Assembly (NCBI GenBank): GCA_027486655.1
Contig: JAIXOR010000059.1
Span: 62,001-126,000 of the forward strand
Source of the DNA: Verrucomicrobiaceae bacterium
GTDB lineage: Bacteria; Verrucomicrobiota; Verrucomicrobiia; Verrucomicrobiales; Akkermansiaceae
Direction: 5' to 3'
DNA length: 64,000 nt
The notes under the pieces are model-generated. The model saw nothing but the letters and a program-made list of their open reading frames with translations, was not told where the DNA came from and did no database searches. Positions 4,492 to 61,675 of the stretch are shown one piece after another (positions within the stretch are counted from its first letter, which is position 1; the number at the start of each line of letters is the position of its first letter). Position numbers and translations under genes: made by a program.

Positions 4492-4812
4492 GGCGGGCAC
4501 CTTCTGATTTCGGGGTTTTTTGTTAGGCGAGGGAAGCGAAAAGAAAATGAGCGGACCGCGTTCCTTCCGCTGGACGGTGCATAAATGAAAAATCCCCGCT
4601 TGGCACCTTCATGATAAGATACAGGCGGCAAATGCCAAGCCACGCGGAGCAAGCACGCTTGTCGCGGGACACCGCATTTCGCATGCTGCGATCAGAAAAG
4701 GGCCGGACGGGCTCATTGCGGTTCCAAGCCCCTTGAAGGGATGGGGCCGCGGAAACCACCGCCTTTCATCCACATCCACCGCCCCGACCGGGGGCTCAAA
4801 TGAACCAATGCC
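4492..4812. other. Divergent intergenic region between terC and the oad-like pair
   Basis: A stretch of about 320 bp without a credible gene. It must hold the minus-strand promoter of terC and the plus-strand promoter of the oadG/oadB pair. It contains one copy of the dispersed heptamer (TGTTAGG at 4521-4527) and a T-run just before it. Short open frames here lack coding character. I see no recognisable riboswitch or operator. Confidence 0.5.
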
Positions 4813-4953
4813 ATGGACAACCTCACGTTCGGACTGACCATGCTCATCGTCGGCATGGGAGGCACATTGATCACCCTGTGGACGCTTGCCATTTTGATCG
4901 GCTGGCTGACACGCATCTGCCAATCCAAGGAGGAAGGAGGCTCCCGTGAGTGA
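4813..4953 (+). CDS. OadG-like small gamma subunit of a sodium-pumping decarboxylase
   Basis: A 46-residue single-span membrane protein beginning MDNLTFGLTMLIVGMGG. The hydrophobic helix GLTMLIVGMGGTLITLWTLAILIGWL is followed by a short charged tail. This size and layout, directly upstream of an OadB homologue, is the signature of the gamma chain (OadG/MmdC) that anchors the carboxyltransferase to the membrane pump. Its stop at 4951-4953 overlaps the GTG start of the next gene by 8 bases, so the two are translationally coupled. Its own ribosome site is weak, while the coding end carries AAGGAGGAAGGAGG, which serves the downstream gene. The tail is shorter than in classic OadG, which has a longer metal-binding C-terminus, so the name is an inference from size, helix and neighbour. 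Confidence 0.7.
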   Translation: MDNLTFGLTMLIVGMGGTLITLWTLAILIGWLTRICQSKEEGGSRE

Positions 4954-6115
4954 AGCCATCCTCAATGCCCTGACCGCTCTCGGAGCAGGCGCTCGCTACT
5001 TCGTATCGCCGGACGGCTGGCCGAACCTGGTCATGATCGGCATCGCCCTCGGAATGTTCTGGTTGGCCATCCGCAAGGATGTGGAACCGCTGCTTCTCCT
5101 TCCGATCGGCTTCGGGTGCCTGCTGGCCAACCTGCCCCTCAGTGACGTGATGGACCAGGATGGCTTCCTTCGCGTGATGTACAACATGGGCATCGAGAAC
5201 GAGTTGTTCCCTCTGCTGATCTTCGTGGGCATCGGTTCGATGACGGATTTCACTCCCCTCTTGGCGAGGCCGAAGATGATTCTTTTCGGCGCGGCGGGCC
5301 AGTTGGGGATTTTCCTCACGCTGTTGGTGGCGCTTGCGCTCGGATTTCCGAAAGAACTGGCGGTCTCGGTGGCATCGATCGGCGCCTGTGACGGGCCTAC
5401 GGTGATCTACGTGTCCAATCTGTTCGCCGGGCTTGGAAAGATCGATTCCTCGATGGTGGGCGCGCTGGCGGTCGCTGCCTACTCCTACATGGCCCTGGTG
5501 CCAATCATCCAGCCACCGATCATGCGCCTGATGACCACCGAGAAGGAGCGGGCCACGAAGATCCCTCCGTCGAGCAACAAGGTGCCGAAGAGCGCCCTCA
5601 TCTTCTTCCCGATCCTCGTGGTGGTGCTCACCGGCATCATCGCGCCGAAAGGGCTGCCGCTGATGGGCTCGATCATGCTGGGGAACTTCCTCAAGATGAG
5701 CGGTGTGGTCACGCGACTCACCAAGGCCAGCGAGAACGAGATCGCCAATGTCAGCACGCTTTTCCTCGGCCTCGCCATCGGCGGCACGATGGACGGGCAT
5801 GAGTTCCTCAAATCCCAGACGCTCCAGGTTTTCGCGCTGGGGCTGATGGCCATCATCGTCGACACCGTGGGCGGACTCGCACTCGGGAAAATCTGGTACC
5901 GCCTCTCCGGCGGAAAAATGAACCCGCTGGTCGGCGCGGCGGGAATCTCCGCCTACCCGATGGCGGCCCGCATCGTTCAGGTGGAGGGGCTCAAGGCCAA
6001 CCACCAGAACCACCTGCTCATGCACGCCATGGGAGCCAATACCGGCGGACAGATCGGCTCGGTGATGGCCGCCTCGATCATGCTCGCCATCCTCAAAGGC
6101 CTCGGCCTGATCTGA
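4946..6115 (+). CDS. Sodium ion-translocating decarboxylase beta subunit (OadB/GcdB/MmdB family)
   Basis: A 389-residue multi-span membrane protein that couples decarboxylation of a carboxybiotin carrier to Na+ export. Family landmarks are GIENELFPLLIFVGIGSMTDF, the ion-binding loop SIGACDGPTVIYVSN with its conserved Asp, PIIQPPIMRLMTT, the loop STLFLGLAIGGTMDG, NPLVGAAGISAYPMAARIVQ, and HAMGANTGGQIGSVMAA near the end. The GTG start at 4946 is set by a strong purine-rich ribosome site and by overlap with the gamma-like gene. No carboxyltransferase (alpha) or biotin carrier gene lies in the window, so the substrate (oxaloacetate, methylmalonyl-CoA or glutaconyl-CoA) cannot be assigned. The pump presumably pairs with an alpha chain encoded elsewhere. 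The family assignment is very secure. Confidence 0.93.
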   Translation: MSEAILNALTALGAGARYFVSPDGWPNLVMIGIALGMFWLAIRKDVEPLLLLPIGFGCLLANLPLSDVMDQDGFLRVMYNMGIENELFPLLIFVGIGSMTDFTPLLARPKMILFGAAGQLGIFLTLLVALALGFPKELAVSVASIGACDGPTVIYVSNLFAGLGKIDSSMVGALAVAAYSYMALVPIIQPPIMRLMTTEKERATKIPPSSNKVPKSALIFFPILVVVLTGIIAPKGLPLMGSIMLGNFLKMSGVVTRLTKASENEIANVSTLFLGLAIGGTMDGHEFLKSQTLQVFALGLMAIIVDTVGGLALGKIWYRLSGGKMNPLVGAAGISAYPMAARIVQVEGLKANHQNHLLMHAMGANTGGQIGSVMAASIMLAILKGLGLI

Positions 6116-6828: not shown

Positions 6829-6834
6829 CCCGCA

Positions 6835-7137: not shown

Positions 7138-7148
7138 AAGATCGAGCG

Positions 7149-8149: not shown

Positions 8150-9829
8150 ATGAATGCCTGCACACGCGCTCTTCCCTTCCTTTGCCTCCTGGCAGGTGCC
8201 AGCCCCACATCGGCTGCGCCGACACTCACCAAGCTCGCTGATTTCAACAACAGCGCGCCGCTTTTTCAGGCACATCCGCAAAACGTGAACGACTCGCCTG
8301 TCCTCATCGGCAACCAACTCTGGTTCACCTGCGAGAAGGGCGGATCCAACGGAGCCGGCTCCATCTCCACCTTCGACATCGCCACCCACACCGTCGCCAC
8401 CGTGCTGTCGATGGACAACGCCACCGGCCAGACGCCGAAAGCCACTCCCACCGTGGACGGGGACTTCCTCTATGTGACGACCATCGGCAGCACCTCCGGA
8501 TCGATCTTCAGCACCCTCTTCCGCTTCAACCACCGCACCGCAGGCTACGACGCCGAGCTGTGGGAGGCCGCCAGTGGCAGCAATCCCTCGGCCCGCGCGC
8601 CTTGGGGCGGAGTCACCGTCATCGATCGCGGACCCGGCCAGGGAAAGGATCTCTATTTCACCACCTACAACGGCGGACCTAACAACACCGGCACCATCCA
8701 ACGCCACCGGACGGACACCGGCATCACCACCCAGATCCATGTCTTTCCCAACTCGCCCGGTGGAAAGTTTCCCTACAAGGGCTTCACCGCCGTGGGCACG
8801 GACCTTTATTTCACCACCTTCAACGGCGGCGCCGGCCTTGGCACCATCGGCAAGCTCGATGCCTCCATCCGCGGCGCGGAAACCGTCACCACGCTCGCCG
8901 CCATGCCCGCCTCCGCGGAACCCGCCACCCAGCTTCCCTCCCACAACCCCTACTACCGGGCCCTCGACCACTCGCTCTACTTCACCACCGTAGGCACCAA
9001 CACCCAGCCGGGCGCGTTGATGAGGTTCGATCTCACCCTCCACCAACTCAGCATCGTCCACCGCATCCAGGGCGGCCCCACCACCGGCAACTACCCGGAG
9101 GGAAACAAATGCTACGGCCCCGTGGCGGAGTGGAACAAGGCGCTCTACTACACCACCATCGGCGGCGGTGCGAATGTGCCGACCGGCACCGGCGCAGGCG
9201 GCACCATCAACCGCTACGACCTCCGCACCGGCGCGCACGAGACGCTCTTCCACCTCGATGCCGGCACCAACAACGGACCCGGAGGCGAGATCCGCGGCGG
9301 CTGCGTGTTCAACGGCTCCCCCACCCAGCCTGCCTTCTATCTGATTCCGAAACAGGGCGGGCTCCACGACCACGGCACCGTCCTGCGCATGGACCTCGAT
9401 CCACCGCTCCCGCCATCGACCTACGAGACCTGGCTCTCCCTCCACCCCTCGCTCACCGGCCCCTCATCCGTCCTCGCGGCGGATCCGGATCAAGACGGAT
9501 TCGACAACCGCACCGAGTTTGCCTTCGGCACGGACCCGGCTTCCGCCAGCGGTGGCACCGGCCACCAGGCCCTCGCGGAGGCCGGCCAACTGGAGATCCG
9601 CTGGACCGCACGCAGCGACGGCAGCATCATCTATCAGATTCTCGGCAGCCCCACCCTCGGTGCGGCACCGCAGCCATGGCAGGCGATCCCGGCCACGCAG
9701 GAAATCATGACCTCGCCGGATATCGCCGTGCCCGTGGGCTACGAGCGCCGCCGCGTGATCCTCCCGCTCGCCGATGCCCGCGGCTTTTTCCGTGTGCAGG
9801 CCACTCTTCAAGCCAACGCCCTGCCATGA
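8150..9829 (+). CDS. Secreted propeller-like protein with C-terminal DxDxDG module
   Basis: A 559-residue exported protein. The signal peptide is MNACTRALPFLCLLAGASPTSA-A. Residues about 25-420 contain repeated units of the type DLYFTTFNGG..GTIGKLD, LYYTTIGGG..GTINRYD and LYVTTIGST..SIFSTLFRF, the pattern of GTIF-type propeller repeats common in Verrucomicrobiota and Bacteroidota. From residue about 445 comes the calcium-loop motif DPDQDGFDNRTEFAFGTDP, then a roughly 100-residue beta segment that ends in GFFRVQAT. That module recurs in three other secreted proteins of this window (at 35088, 51189 and 55040). The stop overlaps the start of the pseudopilin gene (ATGA), so the two are co-translated. 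The ligand or substrate is unknown. Confidence 0.75.
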   Translation: MNACTRALPFLCLLAGASPTSAAPTLTKLADFNNSAPLFQAHPQNVNDSPVLIGNQLWFTCEKGGSNGAGSISTFDIATHTVATVLSMDNATGQTPKATPTVDGDFLYVTTIGSTSGSIFSTLFRFNHRTAGYDAELWEAASGSNPSARAPWGGVTVIDRGPGQGKDLYFTTYNGGPNNTGTIQRHRTDTGITTQIHVFPNSPGGKFPYKGFTAVGTDLYFTTFNGGAGLGTIGKLDASIRGAETVTTLAAMPASAEPATQLPSHNPYYRALDHSLYFTTVGTNTQPGALMRFDLTLHQLSIVHRIQGGPTTGNYPEGNKCYGPVAEWNKALYYTTIGGGANVPTGTGAGGTINRYDLRTGAHETLFHLDAGTNNGPGGEIRGGCVFNGSPTQPAFYLIPKQGGLHDHGTVLRMDLDPPLPPSTYETWLSLHPSLTGPSSVLAADPDQDGFDNRTEFAFGTDPASASGGTGHQALAEAGQLEIRWTARSDGSIIYQILGSPTLGAAPQPWQAIPATQEIMTSPDIAVPVGYERRRVILPLADARGFFRVQATLQANALP

Positions 9830-10440
9830 AGCGCCGCCCCTCCCACTTCGCGGCCGGGTTCACCCTCGGGGAAATCCTCACCGTGATTCTCATTCTCTCG
9901 GTTCTCGTCATTCTCATTTTCCAGATGGCGTCCCGCTCCATCGAGCGAGCCCACCATGCGGTGGACATCCTCAAACTGCGCCACATCAACTCCGCCATCG
10001 TCGCCCGCGCCATCGAAAACAACGGCATCGCCTACACCAAACAGGAAACCGGAAACTCGGTCTACCGCCAGTGGGACGATCCGCTGAGCCTCTGCCAGGT
10101 GCTCTCCGGCTTCCTCTCCGGCGAGGAAGCCTGGATGAGCCCCTCCGCCAACTCACGCCACCGGAAATACCGCAACAGCTATGCCTGGTCCCAGGCGCGG
10201 AAGATCTCGTTCGACCTCGAAAACCCGGAGAAAAGCCAGCGCACCACCCAAATCGAAAACCCCGCCACCGTGCTCACCGTTTGGAACAACTTCTGTTACA
10301 CCCTGCCTTCCGGATTCAACCGCCCGGAATCCAACAGCGTGGGCCCCAAGCCCGCCGCCGCCAACTTCCACCACCGCCCGTGGAACCGCAGGACCGCGGT
10401 GAACTGGTTCTACCTCGACGGCCATGTGGAGACTTTCTAA
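9826..10440 (+). CDS. Prepilin-type N-terminal cleavage/methylation protein (pseudopilin-like)
   Basis: A 204-residue protein whose N-terminus (MKRRPSHFAAGFTLGEILTVILILSV) has the type IV prepilin signature. A basic leader is cut after Gly by a prepilin peptidase, then FTLxE with Glu5 and a hydrophobic assembly helix. The C-terminus ends in RTAVNWFYLDGHVETF, where the DGHV motif is typical of verrucomicrobial and planctomycetal type II pseudopilin-like proteins. It should sit in the inner membrane or a secretion pseudopilus. It overlaps the upstream propeller gene by 4 bases and the downstream peroxidase gene by 17 bases, so the three form a tight operon. The assembly machinery is not in the window. 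Confidence 0.85.
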   Translation: MKRRPSHFAAGFTLGEILTVILILSVLVILIFQMASRSIERAHHAVDILKLRHINSAIVARAIENNGIAYTKQETGNSVYRQWDDPLSLCQVLSGFLSGEEAWMSPSANSRHRKYRNSYAWSQARKISFDLENPEKSQRTTQIENPATVLTVWNNFCYTLPSGFNRPESNSVGPKPAAANFHHRPWNRRTAVNWFYLDGHVETF

Positions 10441-11572
10441 CATTCTAACATCAACGCTGGTGGCCACCGCGTTTGCGGCCACCGCCACTCCGGAATTCGC
10501 CACCCGCGAGGAACTCCTCGCCTGGCTGCGCACCGAGTATGCCAAGCCCCCCGCCGCCTGGCCCGCACCCGTGCTCGATGAAGGCGTGCCGCACCGCGAA
10601 CTCGCCACCCCGGGCCCCGCCCCCTTCCCCGAGGGCATGGAGCCCACCCGCGAGAAAAAGGAACTCGGCCTCTCGCTCTTCTTCGATCCCCGCCTTTCCG
10701 GATCGCAGCAGATCTCCTGCTCGCGCTGCCACGATCCGGAAAAAGGCTGGGCCGATGGCCGCTCGCTCGCCCAGGGCGTCTTCATGGGCCAGCTCACCCG
10801 CAACACCCCGGGCCTCCAGGGCGTCGGACACCACACCTCGATCTTCTGGGACGGCCGCTCACCCAGCCTCGAAGCCCAGGCCGCCGCCGTGATCACCCAC
10901 CCCAAGGAAATGGCGGGAAACCCGGAGAAAATCGTCCGACGACTCGCCGCCGTGAAGGACTTTTACCCGCCGAGATTCAAAGCCGCCTTTGGCGATGAAT
11001 CGATCACCTTCGAGCGCATCCTCCAGGCCATCGCCGCCTTCGAGCGCGGACTCACCACCGGCCGCAGCCGCTTCGATCGCTTTCTCGCCGGCAAACAAGA
11101 CGCCCTCAACGATGCGGAGCTCCACGGCCTCCACCTCTTCCGCACTCAGGCCCGCTGCCTCAACTGCCACAACGGCCCCCATTTCTCCGACGGGCTTTCC
11201 CACAACGCCGGACTCACCTACTATGGTCGCCGTTTTGAGGACCTCGGCCGCCACACGGTCACGGGCAAGGCTGAAGACGTCGGCAGGTTCCGCACCCCCT
11301 CGCTGCGCAACGTCGGCCGCACCGGGCCCTGGATGCACCACGGACTCTTCCCCACCATGCGCGGCGTCCTCAACCTCTACAACGCCGGCATGCCGCGCCC
11401 CGCCCGCAAGGATCATCAAAAGGACGATCCCCTCTTCCCGGAAACCAGCCCGCTCCTCAAGCCGCTCCATCTCAGCCCCGACCAACGCGCCGACCTTGAG
11501 GCCTTCCTCATGTCCCTCGACGAGCCCCCCATGCGCGTGCTCACGCCGCCTTTCCCGCCACTCGGCCCCTGA
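10424..11572 (+). CDS. Di-haem cytochrome c peroxidase / MauG-family protein
   Basis: A 382-residue periplasmic protein with an N-terminal signal (MWRLSNILTSTLVATAFAATA). Two c-type haem sites are visible: CSRCH (residues about 99-103), followed by a family-typical GWADGRSLAQG, and CLNCH (about 245-249), followed by GPHFSDGLSHN. The segments FWDGRSPSLEAQA and FRTPSLRNVGRTGPWMHHG match the CCP/MauG family, which reduces hydrogen peroxide or oxidises protein side chains at the high-potential haem. The gene begins inside the last codons of the pseudopilin gene (17-base overlap). That overlap carries two tandem TTCTAACA units (10435-10450). Coupling to a secreted propeller protein and a pseudopilin suggests a dedicated envelope oxidation function, but the substrate is unknown. 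Confidence 0.88.
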   Translation: MWRLSNILTSTLVATAFAATATPEFATREELLAWLRTEYAKPPAAWPAPVLDEGVPHRELATPGPAPFPEGMEPTREKKELGLSLFFDPRLSGSQQISCSRCHDPEKGWADGRSLAQGVFMGQLTRNTPGLQGVGHHTSIFWDGRSPSLEAQAAAVITHPKEMAGNPEKIVRRLAAVKDFYPPRFKAAFGDESITFERILQAIAAFERGLTTGRSRFDRFLAGKQDALNDAELHGLHLFRTQARCLNCHNGPHFSDGLSHNAGLTYYGRRFEDLGRHTVTGKAEDVGRFRTPSLRNVGRTGPWMHHGLFPTMRGVLNLYNAGMPRPARKDHQKDDPLFPETSPLLKPLHLSPDQRADLEAFLMSLDEPPMRVLTPPFPPLGP

Positions 11573-11628
11573 AGGAGGGCGCTTGGTTGTTAGATGCCGG
11601 TTCGCCAGCACCTCGCCTGCGGGCAAGA

Positions 11629-13586: not shown

Positions 13587-14705
13587 TCACCAGTCGTCGC
13601 CGAGGCCGTAGCGGCCGGCGAGTTCCAGCAGGTCGCCGCGCATCGGCCATTCGTCCGGGCGTTCGCTGGACTGGTGGCGCTTGCTCGCTCCCTTGAGCAT
13701 CATGCAGCCGGTGTTGTCGCCGATCTTGCCGATGGCATCCACCTCGTCGGGCGAGAGGCGCACGTCCGGCAGCGCGGCAAACTCGCGGATCTTGTCCTCG
13801 ATGGGCCGCGCGCCTTCTCCGGATTCCTGGATGAAGGTGGGCACCACGCTTTCCACGGCGGGATGGCTGAGGTTCCAAATGGAAGCGAACTGGAGCAGGG
13901 TGAGGCCGTATTTCTCGGCCACGGGCTTCATGCGCTCCGCCTTCTCCATGCCGTGCTGCACCCAGCCCTCGGGGCGGTAGGTGCGGTGGTCGCCGGGTTT
14001 GAACTCATGGCCGGGCAGGGCGAGGTCGCCATGGAAGACGCCGCCGTGATCGACCACGCGCGTCATCACCTTCACGCCATGGGTTTCACAAGCGGGCAGC
14101 GTGAGGCCGACGGGCCAGGGCTCCAGCGGATTGAGAATGAGCATCGCCCAGTCGATCAGTTCGCCGAAGCGCTCGAAGCTGCCCACCAGGTCGAGCGAGA
14201 ATCCATTGGCCGGCCCCGGCGCGATGCCGAGCATGCGGGTGAGGCCTTCGTCCTTGGCGTCCTTCATCGCATTCCAGACGGCGTCGCTGGTGTAGCCGAG
14301 TTCGTCGGGATTGTGGAGCATGAGCAGGTCGAAGTGATCCGAGCCGCAGCGTTCGAGTTCCCTGGAGGCGGCCATGCGGACGAAGCCGGCATAGCCCTCG
14401 GGCCCGCGCAGTTCGGCATCGGTGAAACGCGGGTAACCCCTGGCCCCCTGCCGCTGGCCTTCGTAGAAATCGTGGCCGATCATGCCCACCAGGCTGTAGG
14501 TCGAGCGATCCACGCCTTTGAGCGCACGGCCTAACAGCTCGTCCGCCTTGCCGTTTCCATACACATCGGAAGTGACGAAGGTGCGGATACCGGCCTGATA
14601 GGCGGTCTCGATGCAGCCGATGAAGCGGTCCTCGGGCAGGGTTTCTCCGAAGTGCATGAAGCGGCCGCCGCTCCAGGTGCCGTAGGCTGTGGTGGTGGGA
14701 TCCAT
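13587..14705 (-). CDS. Aldo/keto reductase-like protein with an altered catalytic site
   Basis: A 372-residue TIM-barrel oxidoreductase of the AKR superfamily. Visible features are the YQAGIRTFVTSDVYGNGKADELLGRAL segment (family Asp and Tyr), the strand FDLLMLHNPDELG with the conserved His, and a C-terminal EKYGLTLLQFASIWNLSHPAVESVVPTF that binds the NADP phosphate in relatives. The usual catalytic Lys strand (xxTK) is replaced by YSLVGMIGHDFYEG, where I see no Lys, so activity may differ from standard aldehyde or ketone reduction. An extra region rich in charged residues (KRHQSSERPDEWPMRGD) follows the barrel. It is convergent with the Hsp70 gene and divergent from nothing close; a candidate promoter precedes it. 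The physiological substrate is unknown. Confidence 0.8.
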   Translation of the reverse strand: MDPTTTAYGTWSGGRFMHFGETLPEDRFIGCIETAYQAGIRTFVTSDVYGNGKADELLGRALKGVDRSTYSLVGMIGHDFYEGQRQGARGYPRFTDAELRGPEGYAGFVRMAASRELERCGSDHFDLLMLHNPDELGYTSDAVWNAMKDAKDEGLTRMLGIAPGPANGFSLDLVGSFERFGELIDWAMLILNPLEPWPVGLTLPACETHGVKVMTRVVDHGGVFHGDLALPGHEFKPGDHRTYRPEGWVQHGMEKAERMKPVAEKYGLTLLQFASIWNLSHPAVESVVPTFIQESGEGARPIEDKIREFAALPDVRLSPDEVDAIGKIGDNTGCMMLKGASKRHQSSERPDEWPMRGDLLELAGRYGLGDDW

Positions 14706-17198: not shown

Positions 17199-17342
17199 TG
17201 GCGGGTTTTCTCCATCGAGGGATGTTAGAGTTGTCAGCCATCGGCTCCACTGGGCCCGGAAACCCGGGTTGATTCCTGAATCCGGGATTTTCAAACTACT
17301 GAAAACACGGGCAATGCCATCAAACGCTCGACGTGTTGTCTC

Positions 17343-18194: not shown

Positions 18195-18573
18195 ATTCGG
18201 ATGGGCGATGTTTCGGCGATGGTTTGCTTGCGGTGAATCAATCTAACAAAGATGGGAACGCTATGACCCTCTGGGTTTGTGTTCTTGTGGCAAGTGTCCC
18301 GTTAGTCAGAAGTCGTTTCCGAAACGGTTGAAACGCCCTGCATGTGGTCGATCGTTCGGAGTTCAAGGATTCAGCTCGAGTCTCGCTATTCTGCATACAC
18401 AGCCGTAAAAGTAAGCAATTCGATGACACCGATGATCAAGCGGCCGTGCGAGCGGCTTTGGAAGTGCGGGCGTCGAGCCATTTTTCCGGGGTGATGCCAC
18501 CGGCCTGACCGGCTTTCATGGCGGCAGGCGGGTGAGCACACTGTAATTCGCGGAAAAGGACCGGACTTGCTCA
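18195..18573. other. Gene-poor interval with a gene-tail remnant
   Basis: About 380 bp with no intact gene. One dispersed heptamer (TCTAACA, 18242-18248) is present. On the minus strand, just downstream of the double stop of the decayed gene at 18574, about 40 codons stay open, reading FRELQCAHPPAAMKAGQAG, then GITPEKWLDARTS and a stop near 18437. That looks like the 3' tail of a lost gene, possibly transposase-derived, but I cannot name it. Confidence 0.35.
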
Positions 18574-34911: not shown

Positions 34912-34948
34912 GTGACGCCAGGCGCGGATCTAACAGACTACCGCTCGT

Positions 34949-51081: not shown

Positions 51082-51150
51082 GCGGGTTGGCGTATAGAAG
51101 CGGGACGGGACGGGGTCGAGGCCAATGGCAGCGGCGCGGGCACGAATTTT

Positions 51151-51179
51151 TTGACAGTCCGCCCGCGGAGAGCGCAGCA
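51151..51179 (+). promoter_or_regulatory. Candidate promoter of the secreted protein gene at 51189
   Basis: A run of T and then TTGACA (51151-51156, a perfect -35), a 17-base spacer and a weak -10 GCAGCA (51174-51179), ending only 9 bases before the ATG. The same short-leader layout occurs before the Hsp70 gene. The -10 is poor. Confidence 0.35.
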
Positions 51180-51188
51180 TCCGCCGCG

Positions 51189-52244
51189 ATGACACGCCCC
51201 CCCGTTCTCATGCTCCTGATGGTTTCCCGGATGATCGCCGCTCCGGCGGTGACGACGCTCACGCTGGTGGACGAGCCGGGATACAACACGCTCCAGATCA
51301 CGGTGAGCGGCCAGTATCTCTCGACCTCCCACACGCAGAGCAAGCTGACCGGCACGGTGGGTGCCTGGCTGGATGTGGATCACCCGAGCGAGACCACCCG
51401 CGAGCTCACCTTGTTCAACGGGTTGATTGCGGGCAGTGATTTCTCGGCCACGGGCACCGCATCGAGCTTCGGGTTTCCGTTAGGCACCTATCAGCTCAAC
51501 GCGACGGGTCTTGCCGGAACATTCTTCACCATTCAAGCGCCGGGGACGGTGACTCCGGCGACGGGCACCTTCAACGCCGCCCAACACCGGTTCGTGATCG
51601 ATCAGGGAACGGTCACCGGAAACGCCTTGGGGCAGTCCTATCAGTCCGCCTTCAACAGCCAGAATCCCTTCGCGGGGACGGGATCGGGGACCGGATCCGT
51701 CACACTGACGCCGGCGGGTGCGGATGCGGATTCGATCCTCTATCAGGTCGTGGTGGTGGTGCCCGGAGTAAGTGTGAGCGACTCGATGCTGGTGGGCAAT
51801 CCGCCGTTCACCAGCAACGTCACGGTGACCGGCACCGGCACGATCAAGGCGGCGGGCGTGATCGACGTGCCGCGCAGCGGATACGTGGCCTGGACGCTTC
51901 GCGAGGGGATCGGAGGAGCCCCCTTCAACGGCGATGTGAATGGCGACGGAGTGTCCAACGGCATGGCGTGGGCGATGGGGCTCGGATCCCTGCCATCGGC
52001 AGCGGCGCATTTGCCGCGGGTCACCTCTTCGGAGCCTCCGGAATTTGAGATTCCATTCGCCAACGGCGGATCGAGGGCACCGTTGTGGATCGAAGTGGCG
52101 GAATCCCCCGGTGTCTGGACCGTGCTGCCTCCGGAGGATTGTTCGGCAGGAGAGAACCCGCTGTCGGTGGGGACGCAGGGCACGGTGCGGGTGGCCGCGA
52201 CGGGAGCCAGCCGCCGATTCATCCGTTTGCGGACGGAGGAATGA
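51189..52244 (+). CDS. Secreted beta-rich protein with C-terminal DxNGDG module
   Basis: A 351-residue exported protein with a signal region MTRPPVLMLLMVSRMIAAPA. The body is Ser/Thr/Gly-rich beta sequence (TTLTLVDEPGYNTLQITVSGQYL, SDFSATGTASSFGFPLGTYQ, GTGSGTGSVTLTPAGADADS, SNVTVTGTGTIKAAG), with no recognised family. A calcium-loop-like DVNGDGVSNGMAWAMGLG begins at about residue 249, and a roughly 95-residue tail closes with ASRRFIRLRTEE. That tail repeats the layout of the modules in the genes at 8150, 35088 and 55040, including a W at a fixed place (SPGVWTVLP). It is divergent from rapA. It is likely extracellular or on the outer surface; function unknown. Confidence 0.68.
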   Translation: MTRPPVLMLLMVSRMIAAPAVTTLTLVDEPGYNTLQITVSGQYLSTSHTQSKLTGTVGAWLDVDHPSETTRELTLFNGLIAGSDFSATGTASSFGFPLGTYQLNATGLAGTFFTIQAPGTVTPATGTFNAAQHRFVIDQGTVTGNALGQSYQSAFNSQNPFAGTGSGTGSVTLTPAGADADSILYQVVVVVPGVSVSDSMLVGNPPFTSNVTVTGTGTIKAAGVIDVPRSGYVAWTLREGIGGAPFNGDVNGDGVSNGMAWAMGLGSLPSAAAHLPRVTSSEPPEFEIPFANGGSRAPLWIEVAESPGVWTVLPPEDCSAGENPLSVGTQGTVRVAATGASRRFIRLRTEE

Positions 52245-52919: not shown

Positions 52920-53651
52920 TCAAGCCCCTTCGCGGACGATCAGCAACACCTTGCAAATGAGTCCTAACAGAGCAGACGTTCCGGTCATCGCAATGATGGA
53001 GATGGCCACGGATTCGAAGCGGCGTCCATCCATCAAGCGGATGACTGCGAACGAGGCGAACATCAGCCCGAGAAACATCGCGGGCATCAGGGACCCGGCC
53101 GAGACACCGAGCTTCATGAAATGACGGTATGCCGCCGCGAGTTGATAGGAAGCGGCGGCATGGCAAATGATGAGCGCGGAGAGCAGCATGCCATGGCGGG
53201 CCCAGAGCCCCTCCAGTTCGGAGACTCCCGGAAGCCGCATGCGGTGCCTCATCTTCTTGTGTCTAGAGCGCTTGGCGATCCGGGCGCCTTTCACGTTGGA
53301 AACCGCCGCCACCGGGGAGGCTGGGGCATGGTTCGTGATGACCTCATCATCAAGCTCGGTGTTGAAGACTTCCGATTCACCGTCAGGGAACGAGCTGGTC
53401 ATTTCGGGAACCGTGTCCCGATCTGGAGCCGGAGCTTGGATCGACGCTTCTCCGGACTCCGGCGAGGGGTCGAAAGGATAGAGAAGCAGCAGCGGATGCA
53501 TGGCATCGGCACCGGGAGAATCATCGTGTGCCAGTGACGGGGGCGCATCCTCCGCTCCGGGTGCCTGGGCCGGGCCCAGACCGATATTCAAGCGGACCGC
53601 CCCAGTGGGTCTCCGGGCGAACACAAGGTCACGGGCTGCTGGCTCCTTCAT
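52920..53651 (-). CDS. Membrane protein with long disordered N-terminus, unknown function
   Basis: A 243-residue protein. The first 110 residues are low-complexity and rich in Pro, Ala, Asp and Glu (ARRPTGAVRLNIGLG, PESGEASIQAPAPDRD), followed by a basic patch (RIAKRSRHKKMRHRMRLPG). Then come three hydrophobic segments: HGMLLSALIICHAAASYQLAAAY, LMPAMFLGLMFASFAVIRLM and SVAISIIAMTGTSALLGLICKVLLIV. The likely topology has a cytoplasmic N-terminal tail and a C-terminal helical membrane bundle. I do not recognise a family. The ATG at 53651 (MKEPAARDL) is chosen over the frame start at 53732. It is divergent from the small lipoprotein gene at 53794. One dispersed heptamer lies near its 3' end on a CTG-TTA (Leu-Leu) pair. 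Confidence 0.6.
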   Translation of the reverse strand: MKEPAARDLVFARRPTGAVRLNIGLGPAQAPGAEDAPPSLAHDDSPGADAMHPLLLLYPFDPSPESGEASIQAPAPDRDTVPEMTSSFPDGESEVFNTELDDEVITNHAPASPVAAVSNVKGARIAKRSRHKKMRHRMRLPGVSELEGLWARHGMLLSALIICHAAASYQLAAAYRHFMKLGVSAGSLMPAMFLGLMFASFAVIRLMDGRRFESVAISIIAMTGTSALLGLICKVLLIVREGA

Positions 53652-54024: not shown

Positions 54025-54037
54025 GAGGACGCCTGCT

Positions 54038-54979
54038 CTAACAGGCCTTCCATGCGGCGGCGGCTCCGGCCAGATCACCCAGCGCACAGCCTACGGATTT
54101 GAAGAGGGTAATTTCGTCCGCACCGCGGCGGCCGGCGGCCGATCCGCGGCAGAGGTCGGCAAGTTCGCCCTCCACCTGATCGAGCGAGAAGGAGCCCTCC
54201 GCCACCGGAAGCAGCAACTCGCCTGCTTCGCGGAAGCAGTTGGCACGGTTGTCCACAAAGACCCTGGAACGTGTGACCAGCGAGGTATCGCACTCGCGTT
54301 TGTCCGCGTGGTGATTGCCGAGGAAATCGGTGTGCGTGCCAGGGCGGATCCAGTCGCCGTGCACGAGGATGTCCGGACTGCCGGTGGCGGCCACCACGAT
54401 GTCCGCCTCGGCACAGGCGTGGCGAAGGTCGGTCGCCCGCTCGAACGAGATCGCGGGAAAGTCGGGAGAAACCAGATGTTTCAGTTCCTCCAACCGCTCG
54501 GGGCGGCGTCCCCAGAGGAGGATGCGGCGCAGCGGGCGGACCGAGGCATGGGCACGGATGAGGAAGGGAGCGAGCCGGCCACTTCCTAACAGAAGCAGGG
54601 TTTCCGAGTCCGGCCGCGACAAATGCCGCGAGGCGAGTGCCGAGACCCCGGCGGTGCGGAAACAGGTCACACTCACGCCGTCCACCACAGCGAGCGGTTC
54701 GCCCGTGGCGCGGCTGAAGAGAAGGATCTGCGAGTAGAGCGTGCGGGCCGGCGGCAGGTTTTCCGGAAAGTAGGTGAATGCCTTCTGGGCGATGACTTCC
54801 TCATTCCAGCAGGGAAGCATGGCGAAGGCGTCGTGGCGGCCCGATCCCGGATCGAGCGGAAGCACCTGCCGAGGTGGCATCGTGTGGGGCCCGGCGAAGG
54901 CCTCATCCAGCGTATCGATGAAATCCGGGTAACGCAGGGTGGCGTGGACGTGATCCGAAGAAATGACTTTGAGACTCAT
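54038..54979 (-). CDS. Ornithine cyclodeaminase / mu-crystallin family protein
   Basis: A 313-residue NAD(P)-dependent enzyme of the OCD family, whose members convert ornithine to proline, make opines, or reduce cyclic imines. Landmarks are the N-terminal MPPRQVLPLDPGSG region, QKAFTYFPEN with the conserved Lys, and the Rossmann domain with TLLLLGSGRLAPFLIRAHAS and the NAD-binding acidic position at LLWGRRPERLEELK. ADIVVAATGSPDILVHGDWIRPGTH and, near the C-terminus, GADEITLFKSVGCALGDLAGA (the family signature) follow. It lies 13 bp from the stop of the lipoprotein gene, end to end. A heptamer (54585) overlaps the Rossmann motif LLLGSG on CTG-TTA. The true substrate is not determined by this alone. 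Confidence 0.85.
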   Translation of the reverse strand: MSLKVISSDHVHATLRYPDFIDTLDEAFAGPHTMPPRQVLPLDPGSGRHDAFAMLPCWNEEVIAQKAFTYFPENLPPARTLYSQILLFSRATGEPLAVVDGVSVTCFRTAGVSALASRHLSRPDSETLLLLGSGRLAPFLIRAHASVRPLRRILLWGRRPERLEELKHLVSPDFPAISFERATDLRHACAEADIVVAATGSPDILVHGDWIRPGTHTDFLGNHHADKRECDTSLVTRSRVFVDNRANCFREAGELLLPVAEGSFSLDQVEGELADLCRGSAAGRRGADEITLFKSVGCALGDLAGAAAAWKAC

Positions 54980-55039: not shown

Positions 55040-57028
55040 TCACTCGGCCTTGGCCCGGAGGAACCACTTGCCCGGAGCTGGAACCGGGCGGCTGAAGGTG
55101 ACCGTGACGGTCGAGAATGCCGGATCCGCGGCAAAGGAAGCCGTGGCCGTCCCCAGAACAGCGACCGAACTCCACTGGGCAAGGTTTAGCGATGCCTCAT
55201 GACCGAAGACCAGGGCAGGGTCGTTGCCGCGTCTCACGTAGGTCCATGAAACGACCGGTCCGGCAAGCGGTGCGGATGCCGGGTAAGCGGCGTCGTGAAG
55301 CGAAGGATGCCCGCCGAAGGCGTATTCCTGAAGGTTGTCGCGGCCGTCACCATCCGGATCGGCGGATGCCTGTGCGGAACCACCAGAGAGGCCTTTGGCC
55401 ACGGTCCATTGAGCATAGCCGTCCGTCGAATAGGGCAGGAAACTCTGGACGGCGGTGCCTGCACCTTCCAACCATCTGTTAGGACTGCCGAAGGTGGAGT
55501 CCGTGGCACCATCTCCATAACCCTGAACGGACGGGCTGGATGCCACGATCGGCGAAATCGCGGGTGAAGGATGGTTTTCCAGCTCGAAGACCTCGCGCGA
55601 GCTGGTGCCGCTGAGTGGAGCCACGCCTTCTCCGACCGGTCCGCAGACGATGCGGTTGGCGGCATCGACCACGCGGAACTGGGTGCCGCTGTTGTCGATG
55701 GAGATTCCACTGACGATTCCTCCGCTGAGGACGAATCCGTTCACGGTGGAGTTCGTGTAGGTGAGGAAGGTCGGATCCCCCATCCAGATGTTCGTCCAGG
55801 TGTCACCAAGGGTGGAGCGCCTGTCTCGGGTGGCGAAGCCGGAGTCGAGTCCGCCCTGCGAGGTGTTGTTTGCGGTGAACGTGAGCAAGGTGCCGGTTGG
55901 AATGGCTTGCCAGTTCGCGTGATTCGAAAGGACCAATGTGTTCTGTGCGACGAATCCCGAGCCGAGGTTGCGGCCGATCTGGATTTTCCATCCCCGCAGG
56001 TCGAGTGTTCCAACACCACCGTTACCGACGACGGCGAATTCGACCCATGGCCCGCCATTTCCTGCAATGCGGCCGAAGTAGGCATCCGAAGACAGGGCCC
56101 CTCCATCGTCGTCGCTGGTGAGGGTTCCGCCGTTGAGGAAGTTGGCCGCGGACACCGCATTGTATTCATTGAGGATCACGCTGGGTGACGGATTGAGCAC
56201 GGTGACGAGAAACTCCTGGACGGTGCTTGTGGATCCGTTGCTCGCGAGCAGCCGAACGAGATGATTTCCCGCATCTGCCAGTGTGAGCGCGCGGTTGCTT
56301 GCGAGCACGGCCTTGCCGGTGGCGCCCGGCGTCAGGGTGAGGAAGGAGGGAACGGTCAGAGCCGAGATGGTGGGAGTCGCGGCACCGGGGGCCGTGGCGT
56401 TCACTGAGTAGGAATAGGACGACATGCCGTAGATCGTCGGCGGGCTCCTGAAGTGGATGCGCGCGTCGCCCGGGGATCCGATGTCCGCCGGCGACTGGGT
56501 GGAGGAAACCGCACCATGTTCGCCCACCGAGCTGGTCAGACCATAGATCGGGGTTCCATCGCGAAGGAAGGCCGCGGACTGGCCAGCAGGCACGGTTCCG
56601 AATTCCGCGTGAGCGACGAGGTTTCCGAAGGGATCGTAGACATTCACCTCGTCTCCGGCCTCGCCGAGTCCGGAAAAGGACTCGCCCCCCACGAACAGCT
56701 CGCGGCTGAGGACCTGGGTGGAGCCAAGACCCCATGCCGTCTTCCATATCGCGACATTGGCTACCGCTTCCTGGAGGATGATGATCGATTCACCGGGCTG
56801 GATGGTGACGTTCGGGAAATAGCTGATCGATGGAAGCAGCGGCGTTGGAGTGTCGTCCCACGTGTAGCCGGCGAGGTTGACGGCGCTGCTGCCTGTGTTG
56901 GTGAGTTCCCACCAGTCGCCGTCGACCGCCGTGCCGGTGTGGGCGCTCTTCGGCATCACTTCCGTGATCACCAGATCGGCGTGGGCGATGGAAACTATAC
57001 AGGCGAGGATCGGAGCAAGGGTTTTCAT
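55040..57028 (-). CDS. Secreted lamin-tail-domain protein with C-terminal DxDGDG module
   Basis: A 662-residue exported protein. The signal MKTLAPILACIVSIAHA-D leads directly into a lamin-tail domain (LTD): LVITEVMPKSAH, WWELTNTGSSAVNLAGYTWDD, TIQPGESIIIL, WGLGSTQVLS. A second LTD-like unit appears at about 290-430: ILNEYNAVSAANFLNGG, GPWVEFAVVGNGGVGTLDLRGWKIQI. LTDs often bind surfaces or DNA in bacterial secreted nucleases and phosphatases. No catalytic motif is visible. At about residue 553 comes ADPDGDGRDNLQEYAFGGHP, followed by a roughly 100-residue beta module ending PGKWFLRAKAE, shared with three other exported proteins in this window. It may be an adhesin or matrix protein. Confidence 0.8.
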   Translation of the reverse strand: MKTLAPILACIVSIAHADLVITEVMPKSAHTGTAVDGDWWELTNTGSSAVNLAGYTWDDTPTPLLPSISYFPNVTIQPGESIIILQEAVANVAIWKTAWGLGSTQVLSRELFVGGESFSGLGEAGDEVNVYDPFGNLVAHAEFGTVPAGQSAAFLRDGTPIYGLTSSVGEHGAVSSTQSPADIGSPGDARIHFRSPPTIYGMSSYSYSVNATAPGAATPTISALTVPSFLTLTPGATGKAVLASNRALTLADAGNHLVRLLASNGSTSTVQEFLVTVLNPSPSVILNEYNAVSAANFLNGGTLTSDDDGGALSSDAYFGRIAGNGGPWVEFAVVGNGGVGTLDLRGWKIQIGRNLGSGFVAQNTLVLSNHANWQAIPTGTLLTFTANNTSQGGLDSGFATRDRRSTLGDTWTNIWMGDPTFLTYTNSTVNGFVLSGGIVSGISIDNSGTQFRVVDAANRIVCGPVGEGVAPLSGTSSREVFELENHPSPAISPIVASSPSVQGYGDGATDSTFGSPNRWLEGAGTAVQSFLPYSTDGYAQWTVAKGLSGGSAQASADPDGDGRDNLQEYAFGGHPSLHDAAYPASAPLAGPVVSWTYVRRGNDPALVFGHEASLNLAQWSSVAVLGTATASFAADPAFSTVTVTFSRPVPAPGKWFLRAKAE

Positions 57029-57992: not shown

Positions 57993-60758
57993 ATGGCCTC
58001 ATCCCGCACCAACGCCATCGCCGATGCGAAAGCCTCGCTGCGGGTGATCGCCGAGGAAGAGGCGCGCCGGGTGATCGAGGAAGCCAAGGCCAGCGCGGAA
58101 GCCCGGTCCGCAGCCAGAGAGCGGGCTCGTGCGGAAAACGAGGTGCTTGCCGCAGTCGCCAAGGAAACCGCAAAGGCCCGTGCGGAAGCCATGGCCGCCG
58201 AAGAGGCACGCATCGACGCCATTGGCCGCGACGAGTGGTATTACATCGTGGACGGAGAACAGTTCGGCCCCGTGCCCGTGGCGGAACTCCGGCGAATGAT
58301 CGCGGATGCCTCGATGCAGCCGTCCATCCGGATGGTCTGGACCGAAGGAATGGAAGTCTGGCGGGCGGTGTATGAGGTGAATCGCCTCTGCGATCCCACG
58401 CCCGGAAAACCGATGCAGGCGACTGGCGAAAACTCCACCCGTCCTTCCGGGGAAAGCCAGCCGATCCCCTCGACCAACGATTTGGCGAAGAAGGCGGACA
58501 CGATTTCCAGCGAGCGCAAGACCACCAGCCCCAGGGAAGATGCGATGGCCCGCCAACTCGAACAGGCACGGCGCCACGCCGAGGCGGAAGCACGGGTGAT
58601 CGAGAAAGCCAAGGCGCTCGCTGCGGAAAAGGAACGGGCGAAGTCCGAGCGGGAAGTCCGGAGTCCGGACCAACACGAGGAGGAAACCCGTTCTAACAAA
58701 TCCGCGGCAATCGCCAAGGAGGCCGAAAAGAAACTCCAGGCCGCCGAAGCACGGGCTGTGGAAGAATCCCGATTGCGGGCCGCTGCCGAAGCCAAGGCCA
58801 TGCAGGAGGCAAGGCTCCGCGCCGAGGCGGAAGCCAAGGCACGTGAGGAATGCAAGCTCAAGGCGGCGGCCGAGGCCAAGGCCACCGAAGAGACCCGCCT
58901 TCGCGTGGCCGCCGAAGCGAAGGCCGCGGAAGAGGCCAGACTCGCCGCGGAAGCCAAAGCCCGCACCGAGCATGAAGCGAAAACCCGCGCACTGGAGGAA
59001 GCCCGGCTGCGAGCCATCGCGGAGGCCAAGGCACTCGAAGAATTGAAACTCCGCGCCGCCGCCGAACTGAAGGCGGCTGAAGAAGCACGCCTGCGCGCCG
59101 CCGCGGAGGCCAAGGCACGCGAAGAGGAAAAACTCAAAGCCATCGCAGAAGCAAAAGCCGCCGAGCAGGCCCGAAGCGCGGCCATCGCCAAGGCCAAAGC
59201 CGAGCAGGAAGCCCGTGCCAAAGCCGAACTGGAAGCGAAAGCCGCCGAAGAAGCCAGAGTGGCCGCCGCCGCAAAAGCAAAGGCCGAGGAAGACGCTCGT
59301 CTCAAGGCGGCAGCAGAGGCCAAGGCCGAGGAGCTGGCGCGCCTCAAGGAAATCGCCGAAGCCAAAGCCGCGGAGGAGGAGCGTCGACGCCTGGAAGCCG
59401 AAGCCCTCGCTGCGGAAAAAGCGCGCGCCGCCGAGGAACTCGCGCGCGCCAAGGCCAGGGAGGAGGCCCGACTTCAAGAAATCGCCCAAGCCGCCGAAGA
59501 AAAACGCCGCCTCGAGGAAGCGGGGAAACGAGCCCGCGAGGAAGCCCGGGCCGCCGCCCGCCTGGCCAGGGCCAAGGACGAGGAGGAAGAAGAAAAGTTG
59601 AGGCAGGAAATCGAAGCCCTCGCAGCGAGTGAGGAACGCCTTGCCGCAATTGCCAGAGAACGCGAGGAAATCCGGCTTCGAACGGAAAAGGAAGCACGGC
59701 TCAAAGCCGCAATCACCTCGGAAAAGGCAAGGGCTCGCAAACAAGCGCGCGAAAAGCTCCGCGCCCTCGCCAGGAACCGCAAGGAGGAGCTCGAAAAAGC
59801 CCGCAGCGCATCGAGCGAAGAAGTCCATCCCTCCCCTTCCATCCAAGCGCCCGAGCCTCCCGACAGCGGCGTAGAGACGGCTGTGATCCACATGGAGGAA
59901 GCGGTTTCGTCCCCGCAGGAAAGCACGCTCCTTCCAAGCACCTTTGCGGAACCCGAAGCGGACGGGGATCTCGGCGAAGCGGTCCTCCCGCCCAAGCCCA
60001 AAACCCCGATCTTCTCGCTCAAGTGCGTCTGGCACTACACCAGCGAGGGCGACCGCCTCGGGCCGGTCACCTTCGACGAACTGCGGGCCATGGCCGCCGC
60101 ATCGAAACTCGACCCGCGGCTTGATCTCGTTTGGAAGAAAGGCATGCGCGAGTGGCAGCCCGCAGGCCGGATCGACGGGTTGTTCGAGCGCCGCACAATG
60201 CCCGCTCCGGGAATGCAGCCACCGGCCACACCCACGTCCAGCTATCGTCCTGCCGCCCATGGCTCGCAGGTGCTCACCCGGGATGACGCGCCATGGCCCG
60301 GAGCCCGCCGGCGGAGTCTTCTGGCGGCTTTGCTGGTTTTTCCGGTTGCCTGGCACTTTTTGTTAGATGCGCTGTCTCCGCTTGTGGTCCAAGGCCTCGG
60401 CCCCGCCCTGGCCGGCGCCGTTCTGCCGGCTGCGACGCTGCTGCCACTCGCGGTGCTCGCGCATTTCATCCTCCGCCGCCTGCTCAACCTTGGCATGAGC
60501 CGCTGGTGGCTGCTCGGCATGCTCGCCCCCTTCATGAACCTGTGGATCGGCTACCGCTGCTTCGCCTGCCCCGCGGGATACGCATGGAAACGGCGCATGG
60601 ACAAACCCGGGCTCGCACTGGCCGCCGCTTACTGGGCCCTCACGCTTGCCGCGCTCCTCGTCATCGCCACGTCGGCGGCATCCCTCCAGGGCATGATCGA
60701 CAGCCCGGGAGTCGTCAAACACCTGCGCTCCGCCGTGGAGGGCATCGCCACGCGCTGA
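57993..60758 (+). CDS. GYF / long charged helix / GYF / membrane protein
   Basis: A 921-residue protein. Two GYF_2-type domains flank a giant helical rod: EWYYIVDGEQFGPVPVAELRRMI with a WxxGMEVW-like end (residues about 80-135), and WHYTSEGDRLGPVTFDELRAM (about 680-735). Between them, residues about 180-610 are almost wholly Ala, Glu, Lys and Arg in repeats such as AEAKAAEEARLRAAAEAKA, like TolA or single-alpha-helix rods. The C-terminus has about four hydrophobic helices (LLAALLVFPVAWHFLLDALS, LAGAVLPAATLLPLAVLAHF, and others), similar to DUF805-type membrane parts. GYF domains bind Pro-rich peptides. The ATG at 57993 is used; an upstream TTG (57927) is in frame. A possible envelope-spanning tether. 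Confidence 0.75.
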   Translation: MASSRTNAIADAKASLRVIAEEEARRVIEEAKASAEARSAARERARAENEVLAAVAKETAKARAEAMAAEEARIDAIGRDEWYYIVDGEQFGPVPVAELRRMIADASMQPSIRMVWTEGMEVWRAVYEVNRLCDPTPGKPMQATGENSTRPSGESQPIPSTNDLAKKADTISSERKTTSPREDAMARQLEQARRHAEAEARVIEKAKALAAEKERAKSEREVRSPDQHEEETRSNKSAAIAKEAEKKLQAAEARAVEESRLRAAAEAKAMQEARLRAEAEAKAREECKLKAAAEAKATEETRLRVAAEAKAAEEARLAAEAKARTEHEAKTRALEEARLRAIAEAKALEELKLRAAAELKAAEEARLRAAAEAKAREEEKLKAIAEAKAAEQARSAAIAKAKAEQEARAKAELEAKAAEEARVAAAAKAKAEEDARLKAAAEAKAEELARLKEIAEAKAAEEERRRLEAEALAAEKARAAEELARAKAREEARLQEIAQAAEEKRRLEEAGKRAREEARAAARLARAKDEEEEEKLRQEIEALAASEERLAAIAREREEIRLRTEKEARLKAAITSEKARARKQAREKLRALARNRKEELEKARSASSEEVHPSPSIQAPEPPDSGVETAVIHMEEAVSSPQESTLLPSTFAEPEADGDLGEAVLPPKPKTPIFSLKCVWHYTSEGDRLGPVTFDELRAMAAASKLDPRLDLVWKKGMREWQPAGRIDGLFERRTMPAPGMQPPATPTSSYRPAAHGSQVLTRDDAPWPGARRRSLLAALLVFPVAWHFLLDALSPLVVQGLGPALAGAVLPAATLLPLAVLAHFILRRLLNLGMSRWWLLGMLAPFMNLWIGYRCFACPAGYAWKRRMDKPGLALAAAYWALTLAALLVIATSAASLQGMIDSPGVVKHLRSAVEGIATR

Positions 60759-60778
60759 GCCGTCAGCCCGACGCAGGC

Positions 60779-61675
60779 TCAGTTCGGGCTGCCCGCGCCG
60801 CCGAGAAGTTCCATGTAGAAATCCTCCAGCGACCTCCGCACCGGAGCCATCGCCCGGACGCGAATGCCGGCACCGACCAAACGCTCCACCAACACCGAGG
60901 GATCCGCCTCCCGCGGCAGATGGATGCGGCCCGCGGCCTGCGCCTGTCCGCCCAGTGAGTGAAGAATCGGAAGTGCGCGCTCCCAAGGATCGAGATCCAC
61001 ATCGAACCTCAGATCCTCGTCCTGCATGCCGCCCACCGCGCCTTCAAACACCAACGCGCCTTCCCGCAGGATGGTCACCCGGTCGCACATCAGCTCCACC
61101 TCGGCAAGCAGGTGGGAGTTGAACAGGACGGTCATGCCACGCTCGTCACGCAGGCCGAGGATGAAATCACGAAACCAGCGGATGCCTTCCGGATCCAAAC
61201 CGTCGGTGGGCTCGTCGAGAAGCAGCACCTCCGGCTCCGGCAGCAGCGCCTGGGCAAGCGCCAGCCGCTGGCGCATGCCGTGGCTGTAGGTGCGGACCTT
61301 AGAGTGGATCCGCTTGGAAAGCCCCACCCGCTCGACGGTCTCGCGGGCCGATTTCTCATCGAACCCACCCGAGTAGCTCATCAGGATCCGCAGGTTCTCC
61401 CAACCGCTCAGGTATTCATAAAACGCCGGGGATTCGAAGATCGCACCCACCTTGCGCAAGGCCTGCGAACGGTCGGCAAGCACCGAGACTCCGCCGATGG
61501 TCACGTCCCCCGCATCCGGCATCACCATTCCGAGGATGATGCCCAACGTGGTGCTCTTGCCCGCGCCGTTGTGGCCTAACAGCCCGTGGATCTCCCCCTT
61601 GCCGACGCGGAAGGAAACCTCCTTGAGCGCGGGTTTCGCACCGAAGGTCTTGGAAAGGGCTGTGGCTTCGAGCAT
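60779..61675 (-). CDS. ABC transporter ATP-binding protein (ABC-2 type)
   Basis: A 298-residue ATPase starting MLEATALSKTFGAKPALKEVSF. Motifs are the Walker A GLLGHNGAGKSTTLGIILG, the Q-loop region VGAIFESPAFYEYLSG, the signature VRTYSHGMRQRLALAQALL, Walker B VLLLDEPTDGLDPEGI, and the H-loop VLFNSHLLAEVELMCDRV. A C-terminal extension of about 75 residues (FDVDLDPWERALPILHSLGG...) follows, typical of CcmA/YxlF-type ABC-2 exporters. No permease gene is adjacent in the window, so the transported substrate is unknown. It is convergent with the long-helix gene and lies 10 bp after the pseudopilin gene on the same strand. One heptamer is at 61575 on the Walker A region (GLLGH). Confidence 0.9.
   Translation of the reverse strand: MLEATALSKTFGAKPALKEVSFRVGKGEIHGLLGHNGAGKSTTLGIILGMVMPDAGDVTIGGVSVLADRSQALRKVGAIFESPAFYEYLSGWENLRILMSYSGGFDEKSARETVERVGLSKRIHSKVRTYSHGMRQRLALAQALLPEPEVLLLDEPTDGLDPEGIRWFRDFILGLRDERGMTVLFNSHLLAEVELMCDRVTILREGALVFEGAVGGMQDEDLRFDVDLDPWERALPILHSLGGQAQAAGRIHLPREADPSVLVERLVGAGIRVRAMAPVRRSLEDFYMELLGGAGSPN

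Follow-up and report, generated by a model that had tools for sequence, protein, structure and literature searches.

YCTAACAR, a candidate DNA-uptake-sequence-like word in genomes of Akkermansiaceae

Background

Bacteria of two families, the Neisseriaceae and the Pasteurellaceae, carry short non-palindromic words in great numbers on both strands of their genomes, in genes as well as in the spacers between them. The DNA uptake sequence (DUS) of the Neisseriaceae occurs in thousands of copies, and the uptake signal sequence (USS) of the Pasteurellaceae, also present in many copies, is bordered on one side by a weak AT-rich flank. Here we describe the word YCTAACAR (YTGTTAGR on the reverse strand), which may be comparable, from a 64,000-nucleotide stretch of a Verrucomicrobiaceae bacterium of the GTDB family Akkermansiaceae (assembly GCA_027486655.1, contig JAIXOR010000059.1, positions 62,001 to 126,000). 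This whole stretch is called the window, and all coordinates below refer to it.

PMC2397512 describes DUS as frequent in genes of the core genome and of genome maintenance but missing from genes gained recently; new DUS copies are reported there to come with changes in the flanks and not through single mutations. According to section 6 of PMC3630211, DUS variants differ between species and number 943-5918 copies per genome. For USS, a bias to gene ends is reported in PMC2346458. According to PMC12616744, the use of such words in the binding step is known from the Neisseriaceae and Pasteurellaceae alone. Among the literature titles listed, which were part of the matches, none pointed to an uptake sequence or an over-represented word in Verrucomicrobiota.

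The word in the window and in the genome

The original prediction was a dispersed heptamer, YCTAACA, counted at about 25 copies where base composition would give about 7. All 15 of its example coordinates are matches to the word, and its abundance is borne out, although the window holds 27 copies (18 on the plus strand and 9 on the minus) rather than about 25. Base composition predicts 7.8 copies here, and Markov models of order 1-3 give an even lower expectation of 1.5-2.5. Because a pyrimidine precedes 27 of the 28 CTAACA hexamers in the window and a purine comes next in 24 of the 28, the full word is YCTAACAR. It occurs 24 times in the window against 0.7-1.2 expected (Markov orders 1-3), a density somewhat above the genome mean (24 versus 16.0, one-sided p = 0.037). 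The whole genome (labelled G000; 5.33 Mb in 87 contigs) contains 1456 copies of YCTAACA and 1335 of YCTAACAR, versus 846 and 535 for the respective reversed control words.

A 441-kb sample of this genome, made up of the window and the stretches L001-L019, holds 123 copies of YCTAACAR where an order-2 Markov model expects 4.6, and CTAACA is its top hexamer at Markov orders 2 and 3. The word is sharply defined. The 18 single-base variants of its core lie at 0.16-1.7 times expectation, save CTATCA at 7.1 times. The flanks show a weak preference on the 5' side and an A-rich tail on the 3' side, and the spacing between copies is close to random.

Gene calls in the sample, made with our own simple caller (321 genes, 88% coding), place 104 copies in coding DNA, 17 between genes and 2 at edges. 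The coding copies use all four stop-free combinations of frame and orientation (YTG-TTA-GR 55, YCT-AAC-AR 25, CTA-ACA 20 and xYT-GTT-AGR 4) and neither of the two frames that would produce a stop. When synonymous codons were shuffled within genes 100 times, 4.5 +/- 2.0 coding copies remained (maximum 10), and a null with codons drawn from genome-wide usage gave 4.0. The prediction that TTA and CTA codons are imposed by the DNA word thus survives comparison with a codon-aware null, here run on 441 kb of the 5.33 Mb. So does the expected concentration of TTA codons in TG-TTA-G, which contains 63 of the 94 in the sample. Since the word is present in every stop-free frame, in both orientations and between genes, YCTAACAR is a double-stranded word imposed at the level of the DNA and not by the protein or the choice of codons.

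A codon-pair or dipeptide artefact, by which Leu-Leu would tend to be written YTG-TTA before G, is compatible with the commonest coding mode (55 of the 104 copies). Such an artefact is scarcely credible as the source of the word, since 45 of the coding copies lie in the opposite orientation in two different frames and 17 copies are intergenic. The density of YCTAACAR in this genome is 0.33 per kb between genes versus 0.27 within them. For the CTAACA core, the intergenic and genic densities per kb are 0.445 versus 0.316 in this genome and 1.10 versus 1.82 in G045, the richest related species, where the intergenic value is thus the lower one.

The neighbouring word YCTATCAR, also at 7.1 times its order-2 expectation, does resemble an artefact of this kind. 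A single motif YCTAWCAR was considered, and the T variant was set aside because 82 of its 95 coding copies sit in one frame, TAT-CAR. YCTATCAR looks like a codon-pair preference (Tyr-Gln) rather than a DNA word. The C variant, YCTACCAR, was also rejected as a form of the motif, being deficient in genes (7 versus 39.9).

Strand and orientation

A skewed orientation had been suspected from the window. The counts do not bear this out, either in the window (18:9, p = 0.12) or in the whole genome (736:720, p = 0.69). Leading strands were assigned from GC3 skew, a noisy proxy, above all in G000, and the leading to lagging ratios are 177:185 in G045 and 53:51 in G000, where the skew signal is weak. 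In G004, a relative assembled as one contig, 109 of 179 forward copies fall in the mostly positive-skew part, which is 53% of the genome, and 70 fall elsewhere (p = 0.043); the limits of this part (0.35 and 2.40 Mb) were judged by eye on 20 samples. Overall, the word has no strong replication-strand polarity. Forward and reverse counts do differ in another relative, G021 (1316 versus 1054), unlike in most relatives.

Chi sites are short non-palindromic words that are common in core DNA, strand-polar with replication and G-rich. A Chi-like recombination word would switch an end-resection nuclease of the AddAB or RecBCD type and promote repair of breaks in the cell's own DNA, and it should be common in core and rare in foreign DNA. 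YCTAACAR resembles Chi in being a non-palindromic word of eight bases, in its abundance at mutS and its scarcity at restriction and transposase loci (see below), and in the G004 bias. That bias is weak, however, and the leading to lagging ratios in the other two genomes are nearly even. YCTAACAR also lacks strong polarity and, unlike Chi, is not G-rich. A Chi-like role is therefore unlikely. The same reasoning disfavours a translocase guide, since either kind of site would be polar, and the proposed role in chromosome segregation or guidance of replication loses ground because strong strand bias is absent.

Transcript processing had also been proposed. It is disfavoured because both orientations occur in genes (59 versus 45) and intergenic copies are common; more generally, an RNA signal would be one-sided. 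No Rfam family reaches its gathering score in the window. A promoter -10 element was rejected, the logo of the window copies having no preferred base at the position of the last T of the -10 box, and hairpin or terminator pairs were rejected as close neighbours are not in excess.

Gene classes and conservation

The distribution of the word among gene classes was compared in 15 motif-rich genomes with four protein families, of which mutS is the sole repair family. The expected counts are each genome's mean, from rounded genome sizes. Up to 30 loci were taken per family from searches that listed more matches than these; the second piece of the G010 mutS (L218) is excluded. The 15 mutS loci hold 48 copies where 22.8 are expected (2.11 times the mean, p = 5e-6), and the word is above the mean in 14 of the 15 genomes. 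The opposite holds for the 30 N6_Mtase loci, with 8 copies where 42.4 are expected (0.19 times, p = 2e-10) and values below the mean in 14 of the 15 genomes. If the five weakest loci are excluded, the 25 strong ones still give 8 versus 35.5 (p = 6e-8). The word is also scarce at 30 DDE_Tnp_1 loci (24 versus 41.2, 0.58 times, p = 0.005; middle parts alone 15 versus 21.9). Judging from their families, the N6_Mtase and transposase loci probably represent acquired DNA.

The reversed control does not follow this contrast (mutS 7 versus 6.7 expected, tRNA-synt_1 10 versus 16.5, DDE_Tnp_1 9 versus 11.9, and N6_Mtase 7 versus 13.1 in 30 loci), and across the four classes (25 strong N6_Mtase loci) the pooled density of the 18 one-off words lies between 13.9 and 20.1 per 10 kb and that of the word between 0.9 and 9.1. 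Among the functions originally listed, a recombination-related role fits best, since DNA uptake sequences are spread over gene classes in this way.

Copies in G045 are overdispersed, with a variance to mean ratio of 2.78 in 10-kb bins. Genes dense in the word include gyrA, ligA, clpB, dsbD and GMD. Nearly empty stretches contain genes for ribosomal proteins and SecY (L146) or a type I restriction island (the last 10 kb of L154). Density itself was the basis for choosing these dense and empty genes, so they served only to prompt a test. A further stretch, L138, read as N only.

Conservation was scored in a mutS alignment of 14 species (excluding L217 of G010) at positions where the amino acids agree. 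One YTG-TTA-GR site is common to 10 species and a CTA-ACA site to 9. In ordered comparisons, which are not independent of each other, the word is retained in 164 of 249 cases versus 234 of 860 for TTA and CTA codons outside the word.

Distribution among species

Relatives were gathered by protein similarity to a RapA/DrmD-like SNF2 helicase gene of the window (48391-51195, minus strand; NCBIfam NF003426 above its cut-off), which holds four copies of the word. They comprise Akkermansiaceae and other Verrucomicrobiota. Of 49 genomes of the genus, 31 hold more of the word than of its reversed control, 17 hold less and 1 holds the same number; 12 further genomes of the genus were counted beyond these 49. 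The ratio of word to control extends from 0.18 in G032 to 8.5 in G045, and the density from about 0.02 to 1.1 copies per kb in the same two genomes. G045 has 3307 copies of YCTAACAR in 3.0 Mb, which lies within the range given for DUS in PMC3630211. Words of the YCTAACAR family lead the codon-independent 7-mers in G045 and are not among the leaders in G009, and two sampled genomes, G009 with 260 kb and G001 with 157 kb, are motif-poor; the sample of G032 was 30 kb. Species rich in the motif include G045, G021, G010, G046 and G015, and species poor in it G032, G031, G040, G041 and G009. The genus counts, compared without a tree, suggest gain or loss of the word within the genus.

Across the phylum, the word exceeds the control in only 8 of 288 genomes, our own included (G000, G028, G267, G321, G055, G059, G062 and G255), and in most of the 288 it is far below the control. 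Outside the genus, G063, from another family of the order, has 3105 copies of the word versus 1005 of the control.

Gain and loss of a sharp word between species would be compatible with a methylation-linked word like the cyanobacterial HIP1. In such a system, a methyltransferase recognises the word, and a linked process of repair or replication creates and keeps it. HIP1 is likewise a highly iterated word of eight bases that is lost at the species level; it is sometimes scarce or has other words in its place, and methyltransferases accompany it, according to PMC4390886. HIP1 is palindromic, however, whereas YCTAACAR is not its own reverse complement. Creation of the word by one-step conversion would also need a depleted source word to account for about 118 copies in 441 kb, and the largest Markov deficit is 18 (CTCACA). 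No neighbouring word is depleted enough for an origin by one-step Vsr-like repair, so one-step mismatch repair is disfavoured for lack of source words. Nor does a methylation link by itself explain the rarity of the word at restriction loci. On balance, a HIP1-like origin appears quite unlikely.

The word might instead be the target of a protein that organises the chromosome, or of some other sequence-specific DNA-binding protein acting across the genome. A dispersed double-stranded word with near-random spacing that is all but missing from the ribosomal operon stretches L012 and L146 could serve as such a site. Yet a silencer of foreign DNA would be enriched in foreign DNA, and the opposite is seen. 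The range of word to control ratios within one genus would also be odd for an essential organiser. We regard this role as decidedly improbable.

Other words were noticed in these genomes. The top codon-independent words of G009 are of the GGAAA/TTTCC and repeat kind. Whether the sample is motif-rich or motif-poor (G000, G009 and G001), words of the GGAAA/TTTCC type (e.g. GATTTCC) reach 2-3 times the codon null, in several frames. In the G001 sample (L035, L036 and L127-L132), CTAGCAG/CTGCTAG occurs 44 times in genes where 4.8 are expected, with 37 of the 44 in the frame CTG-CTA-G; this could be a dialect of the word or a codon-pair effect. Contigs C9, C23 and C28 of G254, from another family of the phylum, carry the octamers CCTAACAG and TCTAACAG arranged head to tail, in tandem runs of up to three.

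Comparison with known uptake sequences

YCTAACAR is a double-stranded word without strong polarity that occurs in both orientations, abounds at mutS, is scarce at restriction and transposase loci, and differs widely between related species. This is close to the profile of DUS and USS described in PMC2397512 and PMC2346458. Known uptake sequences likewise have no general replication-strand bias. YTGTTAGR is the commoner reading of the word in genes, at 59:45 in G000 and 240:122 in G045. The A-rich 3' tail of the word resembles the one-sided flank of USS. We therefore consider it somewhat more probable than its negation that YCTAACAR is an independent, genome-wide self-recognition word like a DNA uptake sequence. 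Of the original functional interpretation, the constraint at the DNA level stands and the orientation skew does not; a DNA uptake sequence was not among the functions that it named.

If the word acts in this way, then a surface receptor of the transformation machinery would preferentially bind free DNA of the same or related species that bears it. The bound DNA could then be recombined into the genome. Every round of uptake and recombination would copy the word onward and repair damaged copies, so that it would build up where homologous DNA recombines (core genes, permissive codons and spacers) and remain scarce in DNA of recent arrival. We infer the receptor, the preference in uptake and the drive through recombination. 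ComEC (PF03772), the one competence gene that was searched, is present in our own genome and in 58 of 61 genomes of the genus, and the 3 without it are 57-66% complete.

Several observations weigh against an uptake function. ComEC is uninformative as a discriminator, being present in motif-rich and motif-poor species alike. The word is short; it has six fixed and two half-fixed bases, versus 10-12 bases for DUS. No excess of close inverted pairs or close neighbours exists, and gene-end bias is not significant (p = 0.70 and 0.056), unlike in some DUS and USS. With CTATCA excluded, forms with one mismatch are not in overall excess relative to the codon null (234 versus 271.9 in G000 and 467 versus 441.1 in G045); in G045, core positions 4 and 6 alone are relaxed (2.5-4.0 times). 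By comparison, Table 1 of PMC1939737, in its own units, gives one-mismatch excesses of 2.0 for Haemophilus influenzae and 4.8 for Neisseria gonorrhoeae. The excess at 30 tRNA-synt_1 loci is not significant (70 versus 55.2, 1.27 times the mean, p = 0.06). Stretches of ribosomal protein genes, although core, are nearly without the word (0 in 20 kb of L012 and 2 in 20 kb of L146). Finally, retention in rapA among 12 species, some of them word-poor, is 22 of 110 for the word versus 158 of 499 for other rare leucine codons (TTA and CTA), and the word therefore turns over in this gene.

Our confidence in the uptake-sequence interpretation is kept only slightly above even by the missing one-mismatch excess, the weak retention in rapA, the empty ribosomal stretches and the occurrence of ComEC in rich and poor species. 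The word itself is unrelated to DUS and occurs in another phylum, without the inverted-pair hairpins of DUS; it is likewise unrelated to USS and shorter. It is not classed as a DUS because its uptake role is deduced from distribution and because a one-mismatch excess was looked for and did not appear.

The chances are about even that DNA uptake sequences evolved independently a third time, in Verrucomicrobiota, where many species of one genus and some members of neighbouring genera and families would mark their own DNA with YCTAACAR, with strong gain and loss between species. If so, a DNA receptor with sequence specificity and frequent transformation would have to exist in a phylum for which literature searches showed neither. 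A third unrelated case in another phylum would suggest that such self-recognition evolves repeatedly. The wide range of densities within one genus would make it possible to test by comparison why such words accumulate, whether by drive, repair or species recognition. Stretches free of the word could also help to flag recent arrivals.

Copies within the window

According to our simple gene caller, used here in place of curated annotation, 18 of the 27 YCTAACA copies in the window lie wholly in genes, 2 at gene edges and 7 outside called genes. The 18 genic copies comprise 9 in the YTG-TTA-G mode, 4 in CTA-ACA and 5 in YCT-AAC-A. The 17 codon placements originally given (9, 4 and 4) all agree with these gene calls, and the fifth YCT-AAC-A copy is the one at 8678. 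Of the 11 TTA codons in called genes of the window, 9 are within TG-TTA-G.

In the YTG-TTA-G mode, YCTAACAR occurs on the plus strand within minus-strand genes at 14530-14537 (gene 13587-14705), 52963-52970 (gene 52920-53402), 54585-54592 (gene 54038-54979) and 61575-61582 (gene 60779-61675), each as CTG-TTA-GG. It is read as TTG-TTA-GA at 29503-29510 (plus strand; gene 29424-29831, minus) and at three plus-strand positions in the minus-strand RapA-like gene, called at 48391-51180 (49157-49164, 49481-49488 and 50789-50796). The remaining TTG-TTA-GA copy is on the minus strand at 60360-60367, in gene 57993-60758. The CTA-ACA mode is found as T-CTA-ACA-G at 43369-43376 (minus strand; gene 43163-44980, minus) and twice on the plus strand in gene 45429-47747 (46274-46281 and 47195-47202), and as C-CTA-ACA-G on the minus strand at 50313-50320 in the RapA-like gene. 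Copies in the YCT-AAC-A mode are CCT-AAC-AA at 8678-8685 (plus strand; gene 8150-9829) and 25966-25973 (minus strand; gene 25494-27254, minus), TCT-AAC-AA on the plus strand at 28334-28341 (gene 27413-29404) and 58692-58699 (gene 57993-60758), and CCT-AAC-AG at 55476-55483 (minus strand; gene 55040-57028, minus).

The two edge copies are both on the plus strand. One, at 10436-10442, is YCTAACA with T as the next base and lies at the end of called gene 9826-10440, and the other, at 54037-54044, is YCTAACAR at the end of the minus-strand gene 54038-54979. Outside called genes, YCTAACAR is found on the minus strand at 4520-4527, 11587-11594 and 19445-19452 and on the plus strand at 18242-18249 and 34929-34936. 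YCTAACA followed by T also occurs there at 10444-10450 (plus strand), 8 bases from the 10436 copy, and at 17223-17229 (minus strand). Elsewhere in the window, positions 35088-39212 (plus strand) encode a protein of 1374 residues with choice-of-anchor I-like and 5'-nucleotidase-like parts, both from matches below the curated cut-offs.

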